DNA of 33,902 bases, from NCBI GenBank assembly GCA_028824965.1, contig JAPKBD010000008.1, forward strand, positions 1 to 33,902, given 5' to 3'. A program made the translations under genes and the position numbers. The DNA is from Alphaproteobacteria bacterium (GTDB lineage: Bacteria > Pseudomonadota > Alphaproteobacteria > GCA-2731375). A model generated the notes under the pieces. The model was not told where the DNA came from, did not search any database, and was given only the letters and a program-made list of their open reading frames with translations. Positions 15,381 to 33,902 of the stretch are shown here, in pieces (the stretch's first letter is position 1; every line of letters starts with the position of its first letter).

Positions 15381-18251
15381 ATGTTCAATGTAAAGTGGAG
15401 ACATCCCGGGGCAGCGATTGGTCTGTCCTTGATGATGATAATGGCCGGTACCGCCATGGCGGATTTGCCCAAAATCGGCGTACCGGCAGCAGTGCGCCCC
15501 GCAGCCCACGGCACACCCCCTGGCGCGGAAGCGCGGATCTTGCAGGTTGGCTTGGATTTACAGGCAAACGAATAGATCGATACTGGTGCGACCGGCCAAA
15601 CGCATTTGTTGTTCGTTGATGGCTCCACCGTCTCGATCGGGCCGAATGCCTCCCTCCGTCTGGACAAATTTGTTTACGATACGGATGCGCAGGAGGGGGA
15701 ACTTGTCGTTAGTGTCTCGAAGGGCCTGTTTCGCTTTGTCGGTGGCAAAATATCAAAGAAAAACGCTGTGCTGTTCAAGGCACCGACCGCCGTAATCGGC
15801 ATTCGCGGCGGTGTCGCCATGGTGCAGGTGAATACGCCACAGCAAATTGCAGCAGCGAAAATTAGCGGCCAGAACCTGCCGCCTGCAGCCGCAACAATGC
15901 TGTACGGTGATCAGGTCACCATGCAAGTGGGTACCCAGACCCAAACCATCACCCGCCCCGGCTTTATGATTTCCCAAAACAGCGGCGGCGGCGTGTCATC
16001 GCCGCAAAAGGCGACCCAGGCTCAGTTGAACCAGGCCCTTGCAACCCTCGAAGAACCGCAAACGCCGCCACCTGGTGAGGATGGCGCGCAAACAGCAGAA
16101 CAATTGGCTGCCATCGCACCAGCAGGCGGCGGGCCAGTGGTTGGCGATGATGATGTGGCGGGTAGTCAAATGGCGACCCTCGGCTCTGACAATAGTCCCA
16201 GCAGTGTCGCTGCAGTTGACCCAGGAACGTCGCCGGTCGGCGGCACTACAGGGACCGGTGGTGGTGGGCTTGGCGTGCTTGATGACATTAACGGCAATCC
16301 GGAAGATCAATTGCAGCCCTGCACTGTGATCGGGCAGACCAATTGCATAACTGTGGAAGTGACATCCACGCAAGAAGAGACGCCGCCGCTTGTTGAGGAA
16401 ATTGCAGGACCCTTGTCAATTCCCGGTGCCTGGTCGGGCCGGGTGAATTCGTCGTCGACATCCAGTCTTGGCATCAGCGACAGCAACGGCTTTCAAAACG
16501 GCACGGTATTCGAAGGTGTATTTAACGTGGCGGCGAATGATTTTGAAGATACGCCCGGCGGATCATTTACCGTACCTGCAGGAACCGACACTTTCCCCCT
16601 AGCGATGGTTAATGGCTTTCCCGTTACGGGGTTTGGTACATTGTTGGAGGGCGATGAATTCTTGGTCTATGAATTTACGATAGATAACTCGCCCACACGG
16701 GTTGCTGCCTGGGCCGGTTTGCCGACCCCCGGATCCGCCTTCCCCACGAATGGCGTGACGCATTATAATCTTCGCCCGGATTTCGTGCTTAATTCCCGTG
16801 TGCCGTTCATTCGTGGCATCTCGGGCGGCAGTTCGGTGCCCGATGGATTTGGCGGTGCTTTTATCGATTGGGGCGCAAGTGGAACACCGCCCTTCGCCGG
16901 CTGGCGGGTGGCGGTCCAAGGTGCCGGATCTGAGCAAAGCTCCGCCGTAGGTGTTCTTGTCGGTCGGGTCTTTGATCCCGGCGACCCAGCTAACGCATCG
17001 ATCTTCGCCTATATGCGCGGGACATCGCGTAGTGTCACCAGCGAATTTGTAGAGACGATCCGATCCGAGATTGATGGCTTGCACACCCAACGGGATAGCA
17101 GCCTGGCAGGTTCCAACGCGTTCTTCGGCACGACGGCACCCAACTATTTCGTCCTTGGCAGCGGTGAAACGCCGACGAAAGAATTTACCAGCACCGTCGC
17201 CTCAAATGCGGCGGAATACCGACCCTCAGTCGTTGCTGCAGCGACCACGGGCAGTACCATTGGCCGCACCCACACGACTATGTACGGCTATGCTGCAGGC
17301 GCTGCGCAGGAAATTTATGATGGCGACATAGATCCGGTCTATCTGTTTGAGAGCGATGGTTCGTGTTGCGGCAACGCATTTTCCAACGGTTACTTCCCCA
17401 ATGATGTGACCATAATCTTGGACCCGACCACAGGGACATTTAACGCGGACTTTGATCTGCTCGATCTGGACGATGATCTGGGCAACGACTTAAATATGTT
17501 TTTTGGCTGTACCGCCCTGACCTGTACTGCGGGCATTGAGAGTGTTTATCTGGATAACAATACGTTCGCCGCCATTGAAGACCCGGACGAGATCGGGTCG
17601 ATCTTTACCGGTGGCTATCTGACCAGCCAGACGGATGCGAAATTGTATCTGGTCACATCAGACTTTTTTGACAGCGACGGCCTGCTTCCCTCCGCCGATA
17701 CCTTATGTGATTGCGAATACGTCACCTGGGGGTTTTGGGGCGGCACAAATATTGATGATGACCATGATGAAAATGTCCGCATACATTTAGCCACTTGGGT
17801 TGCAGGCGGCGATATCTGCAACGGCTGCACGTTGCCAATCAGCCAGATCGCCACCTATCGCGGCCACTTGATCGGCAATGTTTTGACTGCGAACAATTTA
17901 TACATAGCAGCCGGCAACTATGAGCAGACGGTCAGGTTTGGCGCCGCAAACGCTTATACTGACGACATCAATGTGACCAATTTTGATGTCAACGCCGCCA
18001 ACCCCGGCGGCACATCCTTCGACAGTACGGTCAATTCGCCGGGCGGCTTCAATGGTTCCGGTGGCAGCTTTGGTGCTGAGGTTACAAGCGGCAACAAGCG
18101 GATGGTGGTCTATGGTTCGTTCAATGGCGGCGGCGGTGATACGGCAGCCGAAGTCCTGGGCGGGTTCCGCATTCGCAATACGTCGGGATCATCGTACGAT
18201 GCAGCCGGCATCATCGCGGCAAAGAAAGTGTCCAGCGTAAATCAAAACTAA
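15381..18251 (+). pseudogene. FecR-domain surface protein gene with in-frame amber codon
   Basis: One frame holds a complete-looking gene of 957 codons interrupted only by a TAG at 15573-15575 (codon 65). Before it are a signal peptide (MFNVKWRHPGAAIGLSLMM, cleavage near AMA/D) and the start of a FecR domain (ARILQVGLDLQANE). After it the same domain continues as IDTGATGQTHLLFVDGSTVS through IGIRGGVAMVQV, at about residues 50-150. A Pro/Gly/Ala-rich linker follows, then a long Gly/Asn/Asp-rich region with cysteine pairs and a beta-rich end (GGFRIRNTSGSSYDAAG) resembling outer-surface lipoprotein barrels. FecR domains normally sense or scaffold at the envelope; no FecI sigma factor is adjacent. 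No indel is needed, so this looks like a nonsense substitution. The part after the stop, 15606-18251, is open for 881 codons. Confidence 0.72.
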
Positions 18252-32400: not shown

Positions 32401-32781
32401 CCGACCTTTACCATTGTCCTGCGCAAGGGCTATGGCCTGGGTGCACAAGGCATGGCAGGGGGCGGTTTCCACGCACCGTTCTTCACCATTTCATGGCCGA
32501 CAGGCGAATTCGGCGGCATGGGCCTGGAAGGCGCGGTCAAGCTGGGCCGGCGGGACGAGCTGATGGCGATTGAGGACCCGGAAGAACGCATGGCCAAGTA
32601 CGAAGAAATGGTCGCCGCCATGTACGCCCAGGGCAAGGCGATCAATGCCGCCTCACTGTTCGAATTGGACAATGTGATTGACCCAGCAGACACCCGGGAA
32701 TGGATCACGTCCGGCCTGCGCGCGGCACCGCCCGTCCCCGCACGGGAAGGCAAAAAACGGCCCTGGATTGATACGTGGTGA
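29422..32781 (+). CDS. Single-chain biotin-dependent acyl-CoA carboxylase
   Basis: A 1119-residue fusion of all carboxylase activities. Residues 1-455 are biotin carboxylase (NRGEIAIRILRA, ATP loop GGGGRGMRAI, catalytic region EANPRLQVEHTVTE). A linker leads to a biotinyl domain at about 515-585 with biotin-accepting K548 (EAMKMQ). From about 605 to the end lies a carboxyltransferase with both halves (GITSGRCFAGNA and DTPGNMVGPVAEQ). This architecture and size match the single-chain long-chain acyl-CoA carboxylases (LCC) described in Mycobacterium avium and Rhodopseudomonas palustris. The acyl substrate of this copy is unknown. GAGGAAG precedes the ATG. It is the last gene of the operon and no separate beta subunit is needed. 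Confidence 0.95.
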   Translation: MSVKNLLVANRGEIAIRILRAAAEMNIPTVAIYAEDEAASLHLTKADEAVGLSGRGVPAYLDGAGILAIAKDTGCDAIHPGYGFLSENAEFAKACAQAGITFVGPTAETLQTFGDKATARELAAGNGVPVLPGSQGAISVGEAEAFFAEHGPIMIKAIAGGGGRGMRAITDADEISAAHGICQAEALQGFGNGDVFVERLLQKPRHIEIQIIGDGQGAISHLGERECSIQRRHQKIVEIAPAPGLTADLRDRLTQAAVTLASAVSYRNLGTFEFLVEGDEFFFIEANPRLQVEHTVTEEVWGVDLVQSQLRVAGGATLADLELTQAQVGPPRGQAMQVRINMETIEADGSVRPSGGVLDSFEMPSGPGIRVDSFGYAGYRTSPSYDSLLAKLIAHTNSNDFTALAQKTYRALCECRITGLSSNISFLQNLLRHPAFKAESINTHFIDDHLAALVEGTDHQRLFFEPAGAEPSDGNLVGVKVDASDPLAVLSHGKTEAAAITTASNDLAGPDGTTAIPAPMQGTIVSIDVAEGDDVYPGRQILVMEAMKMQHVIEAEISGVLRQLPVAPGDTVFEGHALAYVAEQDVDIPDAGDVVAIDLDYIRPDLAEVMERQGITKDDRRPNAVARRRKTNQRTVRENIEQLCDEGSFTELGSLVLAARRGMHSMEELIERTPADGLVTGLGRINGHLFPDEVARCAVMSYDYTVLAGTQGKNNHKKKDRMFEMAEKWRLPIVFFTEGGGGRPGDTDMIFSANLHVPAFHLFGKLSGLVPLVGITSGRCFAGNAVLLGCCDVVIATENSTIGMGGPAMIEGGGLGVFRPEEVGPMSVQVPNGVVDIAVKDEEEAVEVAQKYLSYFQGAVEDWECADQRILRQAIPEDRLRIYDVRKVVENMCDTGSVLELRAGFGLGMVTALARIEGRPVGIVANNPNHLAGAIDSDGADKASRFMQLCDAYDIPLVFLCDTPGNMVGPVAEQTALVRHCCRLYVIGANVTVPTFTIVLRKGYGLGAQGMAGGGFHAPFFTISWPTGEFGGMGLEGAVKLGRRDELMAIEDPEERMAKYEEMVAAMYAQGKAINAASLFELDNVIDPADTREWITSGLRAAPPVPAREGKKRPWIDTW

Positions 32782-33121
32782 TAAGGCGTTAGTTGATTGG
32801 CACTTGGTGAAATATGTTGCCAGACGGGCGATCGGTTGATTAAGCTGCAACGAGATGTAACGGGGAGTTAACAATAAACTGGGAGGGTTCTAAGTATGCG
32901 CAAGTCATTAGGTGTGGCCGCTAGCTGCCAGAGCATTGCTTTTCTGTAATCATTCATCGGTTCCGGGTGTGCCATACGCTCTCATCCTTCTTGTCAGCAA
33001 GATTTCATCGTATGTTGCAGCGACCCATTGAATCCACCTGGATTAATATCAGAAATCTCAACTGACATAGTTGTCCCAAAAATAAACTTGCGTGCGACCT
33101 CCCAACGACAGGACATACATC
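32782..33121 (+). other. 340-bp spacer after the carboxylase, mostly non-coding
   Basis: No full gene is seen. It contains the 17-codon frame at 32896 and a dyad CAACT-N5-AGTTG (33059-33073) about 50 bp before the DUF3127 start. It also has a weak TTGGCA...TTGCCA pairing near 32808-32822 without a T-tract. No clear terminator for the carboxylase operon was found. The stretch looks more AT-rich than the genes to its left. Confidence 0.5.
32896..32949 (+). other. 17-codon frame behind a strong ribosome site
   Basis: GGGAGGG stands 8 nt before ATG 32896, but the frame MRKSLGVAASCQSIAFL stops at TAA 32947-32949. The opening resembles the first residues of an exported protein's signal peptide. 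It may be the stub of a lost gene, a leader peptide or chance. Confidence 0.3.
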
Positions 33122-33484
33122 ATGGAAATAAATGGAAAAATTGTAGAACTCCTCCCGGAGGTATCTGGGGAGTCTGCCCGTGGTCCCTGGCGCAAGCAGG
33201 AGTATATTCTGGAAACCGGGGGGCAGTATCCCAAGAAAATTTGCTTCATGGTTTGGAGTGATAAGATAGACGAATTCGCTATCAAGACTGGGGAAAACCT
33301 AGCTGTATCCATCGATATCGAAAGCCGGGAATATAACGGTCGCTGGTACACTGATGTGAAAGCTTGGCAGGTCGCGCGGGCGGGTGCCAATGCAGGTGAC
33401 ATCCCATTCGCTGATCCTGGCGCTCCGAATTCCGCACATGCTGAAGATGCATACTCGTCTATTGATGACGAAATCCCATTTTGA
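33122..33484 (+). CDS. DUF3127 OB-fold, SSB-like protein
   Basis: A 120-residue protein starting MEINGKIVELLPEVSGESAR. The order of motifs matches DUF3127, an OB-fold family I know mainly from Bacteroidota: RGPWRKQEYILE, PKKICFMVWSDKIDEF, then VSIDIESREYNGRWYTDVKA. The chain ends in an acidic tail closing with DDEIPF, very close to the DDDIPF tip by which bacterial SSB recruits partners. Binding of single-stranded nucleic acid and SSB-partner proteins is therefore likely but not proven. AGGACATACATC precedes the ATG; an upstream extension to 33092 has no better site. Base composition is more AT-rich than the neighbouring genes. It stands alone, which together with the family range suggests horizontal transfer. 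Confidence 0.83.
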   Translation: MEINGKIVELLPEVSGESARGPWRKQEYILETGGQYPKKICFMVWSDKIDEFAIKTGENLAVSIDIESREYNGRWYTDVKAWQVARAGANAGDIPFADPGAPNSAHAEDAYSSIDDEIPF

Positions 33485-33893
33485 GCACCATCTTGGCTGT
33501 TGCCTGACAAATTCTTACCGATCCGGGTTTGCCTGAAGCAGAATGATATTGGAGCCGATTACGGCAGACCTTGCAGCACGTCCTACTTGGCTCCGTATTC
33601 GCCTGTGATTACCCTAATTTCACCCGTGGGGCCGAGAATGCCTTGGCTCCCGTCCGTCAAGGATTGAAAGTCGTATACTGGAAATTGGGGCGCTGCAGAC
33701 AGAAGTGTTCTGGCCGATGACCAACGCATTGTACCAACAAGTGACAGTCCATTTCCATGACACCGGACTTCACGTTTGGCCGTCAATATGTATGATTAGC
33801 AGTAACGGCATATTCCGAACCGAACTTGGTGATGGCCAATGAGCGGAGTTTTCATTACGGCCATCGTTATTCTCAACAAGGAGACCCTTAGCG
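33485..33893. other. 409-bp stretch without a supported gene
   Basis: I see no convincing coding region. A 67-codon minus-strand frame (33583-33786) starts only at TTG, has no ribosome site and resembles nothing I know. A possible promoter at 33769-33796 and the ribosome site of the next gene (AAGGAG) lie at the right end. Confidence 0.45.
33769..33796 (+). promoter_or_regulatory. Possible sigma-70-type promoter
   Basis: TTCACG (33769-33774) and TATGAT (33791-33796) are separated by 16 bp, about 100 bp before the ATG at 33894. The -10 element is good and the -35 matches four of six consensus positions. Confidence 0.3.
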
Positions 33894-33902
33894 ATGACCG
33901 TC
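33894..33902 (+). CDS. First codons of a gene cut by the window edge
   Basis: ATGACCGTC (Met-Thr-Val) follows AAGGAGACCCTTAGCG, a strong ribosome site at about 10 nt, with a possible promoter upstream. Only three codons are inside the window, so the product cannot be named. Confidence 0.5.

Follow-up and report, generated by a model that had tools for sequence, protein, structure and literature searches.

The 120-aa protein encoded on the forward strand at 33122..33484 of the window (the whole stretch of alphaproteobacterial DNA analysed, 33,902 nucleotides long, which is an entire contig, C437 of a 505-contig assembly, ending at 33902) belongs, as an ordinary member, to DUF3127 and to the phage single-stranded-DNA-binding protein (SSB) family PHROG 4932, and not to PF00436. 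It probably acts as an accessory single-stranded-DNA-binding protein that shares the partners of the host's SSB, a reading adopted because the OB-fold model, the structural matches to SSBs and PriB, the domain plan, the family-wide C-terminal tip and the gene neighbours of phage members all point to it. A literature search returned no experiment on any DUF3127 protein, the family receiving a single passing mention, as an annotation.

Coding evidence and composition of the DUF3127 gene

The open reading frame begins with an ATG at 33122 and closes with a TGA ending at 33484, the last residues of its product being SSIDDEIPF. The DUF3127 identity proposed in the first-pass annotation was borne out by a Pfam match to PF11325 of 114.8 bits (cut-off, 27; E = 2.1e-33), which spans residues 2-84 of the protein and positions 1-84 of the 85 in the profile. 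Moreover, the protein matched PHROG 4932, named 'single strand DNA binding protein', with 61.4 bits and an E-value of 1.8e-16 over residues 1-99, covering positions 1-103 of 117, that is, most of the profile length. No match to the 120-aa protein was found in NCBIfam, and PF00436 (SSB) was not among its Pfam matches at E <= 1, the host SSB itself scoring 132 bits. A single DUF3127 gene was detected in the assembly.

The gene had been described as more AT-rich than its neighbours, and the composition agreed: its GC content is 0.499, with only one of the 24 neighbouring window genes (range, 0.475-0.614) lying lower, its GC3 of 0.488 is the second lowest among the window genes, and its codon-adaptation score of 0.579 is the lowest of the 25 (the next is 0.624). 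Comparison with the nearest alphaproteobacterial homologues gave a dN of about 0.09-0.13 and a dS above 1 or saturated, and dN/dS was about 0.04-0.07 where dS could be estimated. The gene is under strong purifying selection, and such low dN/dS values indicate that the reading frame is not a chance one. Elsewhere in the window, positions 15606-18251 encode an 881-aa protein that, by eye, resembles a FecR-type secreted or surface protein and had no Pfam match at 1e-5.

A variable, repeat-flanked site

The gene was also reported to be isolated and flanked by sparse sequence, in line with the 340 nt of non-coding DNA that precede it and with the lack of any gene-like ORF between it and the contig end. 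Upstream of it lies a multi-copy repeat (32950..33038) with a sharp border at 33038, which recurs with 98-100% identity at the termini of seven further contigs (C327, C48, C310, C490, C14, C210 and C406), all copies stopping at the same base. This repeat was not found in the ten congeners, so that the window genome was the only one of the eleven searched to carry it, and it is probably the end of an unassembled multi-copy mobile or insertion element. The DNA straight after the border, which forms the 5′ flank of the gene on the forward strand (33039..33121) and contains the Shine-Dalgarno-like motif CAGGA, resembled in alignment the DNA that precedes the nearest homologues (L036-L039); therefore, the repeat appears to have truncated the original leader of the gene 83 bp ahead of the start codon. 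A promoter and terminator scan yielded scores no better than those of shuffled sequences, an Rfam search of the tail gave no match, and in other carriers no homologous DNA was found beyond the 3′ end of the gene.

The gene lies downstream of a carboxylase gene at a site that is variable, since this region (32782-33902) differs in each of the ten congeners, save for pairs that share some sequence. The adjacency of the two genes could be an assembly join, and it is less certain than the presence of the DUF3127 gene in the genome because the join runs through the repeat. The evidence is stronger for its presence in the genome, given that the repeat is limited to the window genome among the eleven searched and also occurs on contig C490, together with a carboxylase gene that has orthologues in the genus. 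A short direct repeat on either side of the repeat element (32762-32773 and 33037-33048) was considered as a target-site duplication and discarded as probable chance, since the first copy falls within the carboxylase gene and the second overlaps the repeat border. Two further features were observed around this site. A 22-nt stretch near 32798-32819 resembles DNA downstream of the same carboxylase gene in one congener (G003), where its counterpart lies in a reading frame; the stretch is possibly what remains of a lost gene. In addition, the 85 bp at 33657-33741 share 78% identity with C116:749-833 elsewhere in the assembly, with no clear gene at either place, and may constitute a small interspersed repeat.

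Protein architecture and fold

An AlphaFold2 model built from an alignment of 65 homologues predicted an OB-type barrel whose strands are interrupted by a short helix, with pLDDT values of 92-96 across residues 1-80, in agreement with the OB fold that had been suggested from the sequence. Model, Foldseek matches and conservation together delimit an OB-fold domain at residues 1-86 (33122..33379), followed by a fast-changing, predicted disordered linker at residues 87-114 (33380..33463) and by an SSB-type C-terminal tip, DDEIPF, at residues 115-120 (33464..33481), all on the forward strand. The pLDDT dropped below 50 for residues 89-116, which corresponds to the disordered linker and would leave the tip free. 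Among 20 alphaproteobacterial homologues, the window protein included, mean pairwise identity was 77% in the barrel, 16% in the linker and 80% in the last six residues. In the OB domain, the invariant or near-invariant aromatic and basic residues are W23, K25, W45, R69, Y71, R74, W75, Y76 and W82.

The best Foldseek matches in the PDB (probability 1.00; E-values from 7e-5) were mostly bacterial SSBs and PriB, the top ones being the small SSB of S. coelicolor, SsbA of B. subtilis, a mycobacterial SSB and PriB. OB folds bind many kinds of ligand, and OB proteins with ligands other than single-stranded DNA (ssDNA) would stay compatible with the moderate TM-scores to SSBs (0.41-0.57 by query). Searching the PDB by sequence with the 120-aa protein revealed no credible relative among solved chains. 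When profiles were compared with each other, the family and the canonical SSBs from carrier genomes aligned over 41 columns with 92% probability and an E-value of 6e-7, in the second half of the barrel.

E. coli SSB has been described as an OB domain, a poorly conserved disordered linker and a conserved amphipathic tip ending in DDDIPF, and partner proteins bury the terminal Phe of this tip in their pockets (PMC10164576). The DUF3127 protein has the same domain plan as that description, and its predicted OB fold, most like those of SSBs, its disordered linker and its conserved acidic xPF tip are features of a putative SSB-like protein. It shares with canonical SSBs the OB fold, the disordered linker, the acidic tip ending in IPF and remote profile similarity, whereas it differs from them in having no significant PF00436 match and a shorter linker, and in belonging to a host that has its own SSB.

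The tip and the SSB of the host

The first-pass annotation regarded the acidic tip as a mimic of the SSB C-terminal peptide. The DDEIPF ending is indeed present, but it is a fixed feature of the family and not an oddity of one protein, P119 and F120 being invariant in 65/65 homologues. The sole canonical SSB detected in the assembly, on contig C151, ends in GDLDDEIPF, so that its last six residues are identical to those of the DUF3127 protein (LDDEIPF and IDDEIPF, respectively). Both proteins end in IPF in all 15 alphaproteobacterial genomes found to carry the two of them (window genome included), and their last six residues are identical in nine of these 15. In the five carriers from Bacteroidota and Gemmatimonadota that were checked, both proteins end in LPF (5/5). 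A larger set of DUF3127 tips showed IPF in 20/20 alphaproteobacterial sequences and LPF in 38/40 Bacteroidota-like and 4/4 Gemmatimonadota sequences, while the gammaproteobacterial tips were mixed (n = 16: PPF, 8; IPF, 5; LPF, 2; APF, 1). The match between the DUF3127 and SSB tips is suggestive of an adaptation to the host, because the agreement follows phylogeny closely and provides one or two independent contrasts, too few for significance.

The DUF3127 proteins of purple sulfur bacteria (L059, L060, L065, L066, L088 and their kin) carry PPF or APF tips instead of IPF, and in the carriers of L059, L060 and L065 the host's own SSB differs from these tips. Such proteins lend themselves naturally to tests of tip specificity.

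Distribution and phylogeny

The family is mainly found in Bacteroidota, as had been stated in the first-pass annotation, and also occurs in Gemmatimonadota and phages. DUF3127 was detected in 84 of 148 evenly sampled Bacteroidota genomes (57%) and in 2 of 385 Alphaproteobacteria (0.5%), the window genome being one of the two, and was found in none of 60 relatives of the window genome, including 0/10 congeners and 0/4 genomes of the same family. The window protein is thus one of the few alphaproteobacterial members of a family whose OB core and C-terminal tip it shares, with a score well over the cut-off. Among its best 80 relatives in a GTDB-based collection, 19 were alphaproteobacterial and 16 gammaproteobacterial, many of the latter from purple sulfur bacteria. 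The alphaproteobacterial relatives, at 55-74% identity, came from Rhodospirillaceae MAGs, two Ruegeria species, Planktomarina, Tateyamaria, Magnetovibrio and others.

The phylogenetic tree placed the window protein with alphaproteobacterial sequences (support 85/81), adjoining a phage clade, and the enclosing clade (99/97) comprised proteobacterial and phage sequences together with one sequence from a Bacteroidales MAG (L053). A tree of the OB domain alone agreed, and a single alphaproteobacterial clade was not rejected (AU p = 0.675). A recent import from Bacteroidota or phages is not supported, since the window protein groups with alphaproteobacterial homologues in the 99/97 clade, and a plasmid origin was discarded, the plasmid records with DUF3127 being all from Bacteroidota. 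The proposal of transfer with phage or plasmid ancestry was consequently sustained in part: the patchy distribution and the phage and mobile-element associations fit it, but the nearest relatives are alphaproteobacterial and no recent arrival from Bacteroidota was found. Conversely, a deep, vertically inherited alphaproteobacterial clade had been named as the outcome that would refute the proposal; such a clade was recovered, but vertical descent in Alphaproteobacteria is unsupported because the gene is absent from the ten congeners and the four genomes of the same family. The simplest reading of the tree and distribution would be an old lineage, with one or a few old transfers from the Bacteroidota side to proteobacteria and, afterwards, loss or exchange in a patchy manner.

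Gene neighbourhoods in other carriers and phages

The alphaproteobacterial DUF3127 genes stand alone, not beside repair genes, and no neighbour was common to more than three of their loci. Some carriers nonetheless show mobile-element or recombination genes nearby: the viral contig L002 has a large serine integrase beside DUF3127, a recombinase zinc-ribbon fragment adjoins it at L040, and IS or integrase genes occur near it at L039, L042 and L058. A Sak4-like annealing protein is encoded two genes upstream on the viral contig L025 (PHROG 124, 2e-49), a weak Rad52-family match lies at the same distance on the viral contig L015, and a primosomal or replication-initiation gene is found near DUF3127 in the L006 group. 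On viral contigs L003-L013, whose branch adjoins the alphaproteobacterial sequences, a conserved order of primosomal protein, DUF3127 and a small terminase-like protein was observed.

Proteins of this kind bear the name 'single strand DNA binding protein' in several RefSeq phage records. For example, in Flavobacterium phage morran9-1, a primase/helicase gene and NinG lie near the DUF3127 gene, whose product (gp41) is annotated as SSB. The window protein resembles these PHROG 4932 proteins in sequence (E = 2e-16 over residues 1-99) and in its SSB-type architecture; the phage copies, however, lie among replication or recombination genes, while the window copy is chromosomal and alone. In phage HK620, the SSB stimulates Sak4 via its NDYPPF tip, and removal of the last six residues abolished the binding of Sak4 to SSB-coated ssDNA (PMC5928155). 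The HK620 protein thus likewise depends on a DDDIPF-like tip for Sak4 stimulation, but its tetrameric state and DNA binding were established by experiment (PMC5928155), whereas for DUF3127 both are predictions. Second SSBs such as SsbB of the gonococcal genetic island resemble the window protein in being SSB-like, additional to the main SSB and encoded on horizontally moving DNA; SsbB, however, belongs to another sequence family and is encoded in a ParA/ParB/TopB cluster (PMC3334931).

Proposed function and alternative explanations

In the proposed mechanism, the OB domain would bind ssDNA, as suggested by its fold and its conserved aromatic and basic residues, and the protein probably acts as an oligomer. 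The flexible linker would present a tip identical to that of the host SSB, which may dock into the same pockets of SSB-interacting proteins, for instance PriA, RecO and RecG, and DUF3127-coated ssDNA could in this way recruit host recombination and repair enzymes. Phage members probably serve replication and single-strand-annealing recombination, the bacterial copies would be resident or domesticated versions of the family, and the window copy is probably an old gene of the proteobacterial lineage in a variable, repeat-flanked spot. Competition of the DUF3127 protein with SSB for partners, envisaged in the first-pass annotation, is possible, and co-operation is at least as likely.

A different, rather unlikely explanation is that the protein is a phage- or element-derived helper that loads or stimulates a single-strand annealing protein or recombinase while a phage infects or an element transfers, the chromosomal copy being a relic or domesticated and no housekeeping SSB. 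The phage clade L003-L013 as sister branch, the Sak4-like (L025) and weak Rad52-like (L015) neighbours, the serine integrase at L002, the recombinase domain at L040 and the IS or integrase genes near L039, L042 and L058 would fit such a helper, but no recombinase or phage gene lies close to the window copy, most alphaproteobacterial loci have no shared neighbour, a gene carried by 57% of Bacteroidota genomes is too common for a relic, and purifying selection is strong. It is improbable that the protein is a competitor or regulator whose tip titrates SSB partners with little coating of ssDNA, damping SSB-dependent repair or SOS induction; an identical tip and no significant PF00436 match would suit this role, whereas an OB domain far more constrained than the linker, with invariant or near-invariant aromatic and basic residues, would be unexpected if the tip alone mattered.

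Equally improbable is a PriB-like role in which the OB fold accommodates a different ligand (RNA, duplex DNA or protein), with a tip that just docks it to replication proteins: PriB structures are among the best matches and OB folds accept many ligands (PMC12614216), but PHROG groups the family with phage SSBs and the strongest structural matches are SSBs. An assembly or binning artefact, with the DUF3127 segment foreign to this alphaproteobacterium, is very unlikely. The gene lies in the last 860 bp of the contig, joined through a repeat that breaks seven other contigs, and is absent from all congeners searched; against this, the repeat is limited to the window genome (of the 11) and recurs on C490 with the genus-orthologous carboxylase gene, the relatives of the protein are alphaproteobacterial, and its tip equals that of the host SSB.

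Beyond the accessory SSB role preferred here for the window protein, DUF3127 might, more tentatively, represent a widespread second SSB system, present in more than half of Bacteroidota, in scattered proteobacteria, in Gemmatimonadota and in phages, in which the tip follows that of the host SSB and a single set of partners serves two ssDNA-binding hubs. DUF3127 is still named a domain of unknown function, and an SSB role would apply to a gene present in more than half of the sampled Bacteroidota genomes; an SSB tip that is shared across the family and agrees with that of the host SSB provides a direct and cheap handle on this function.
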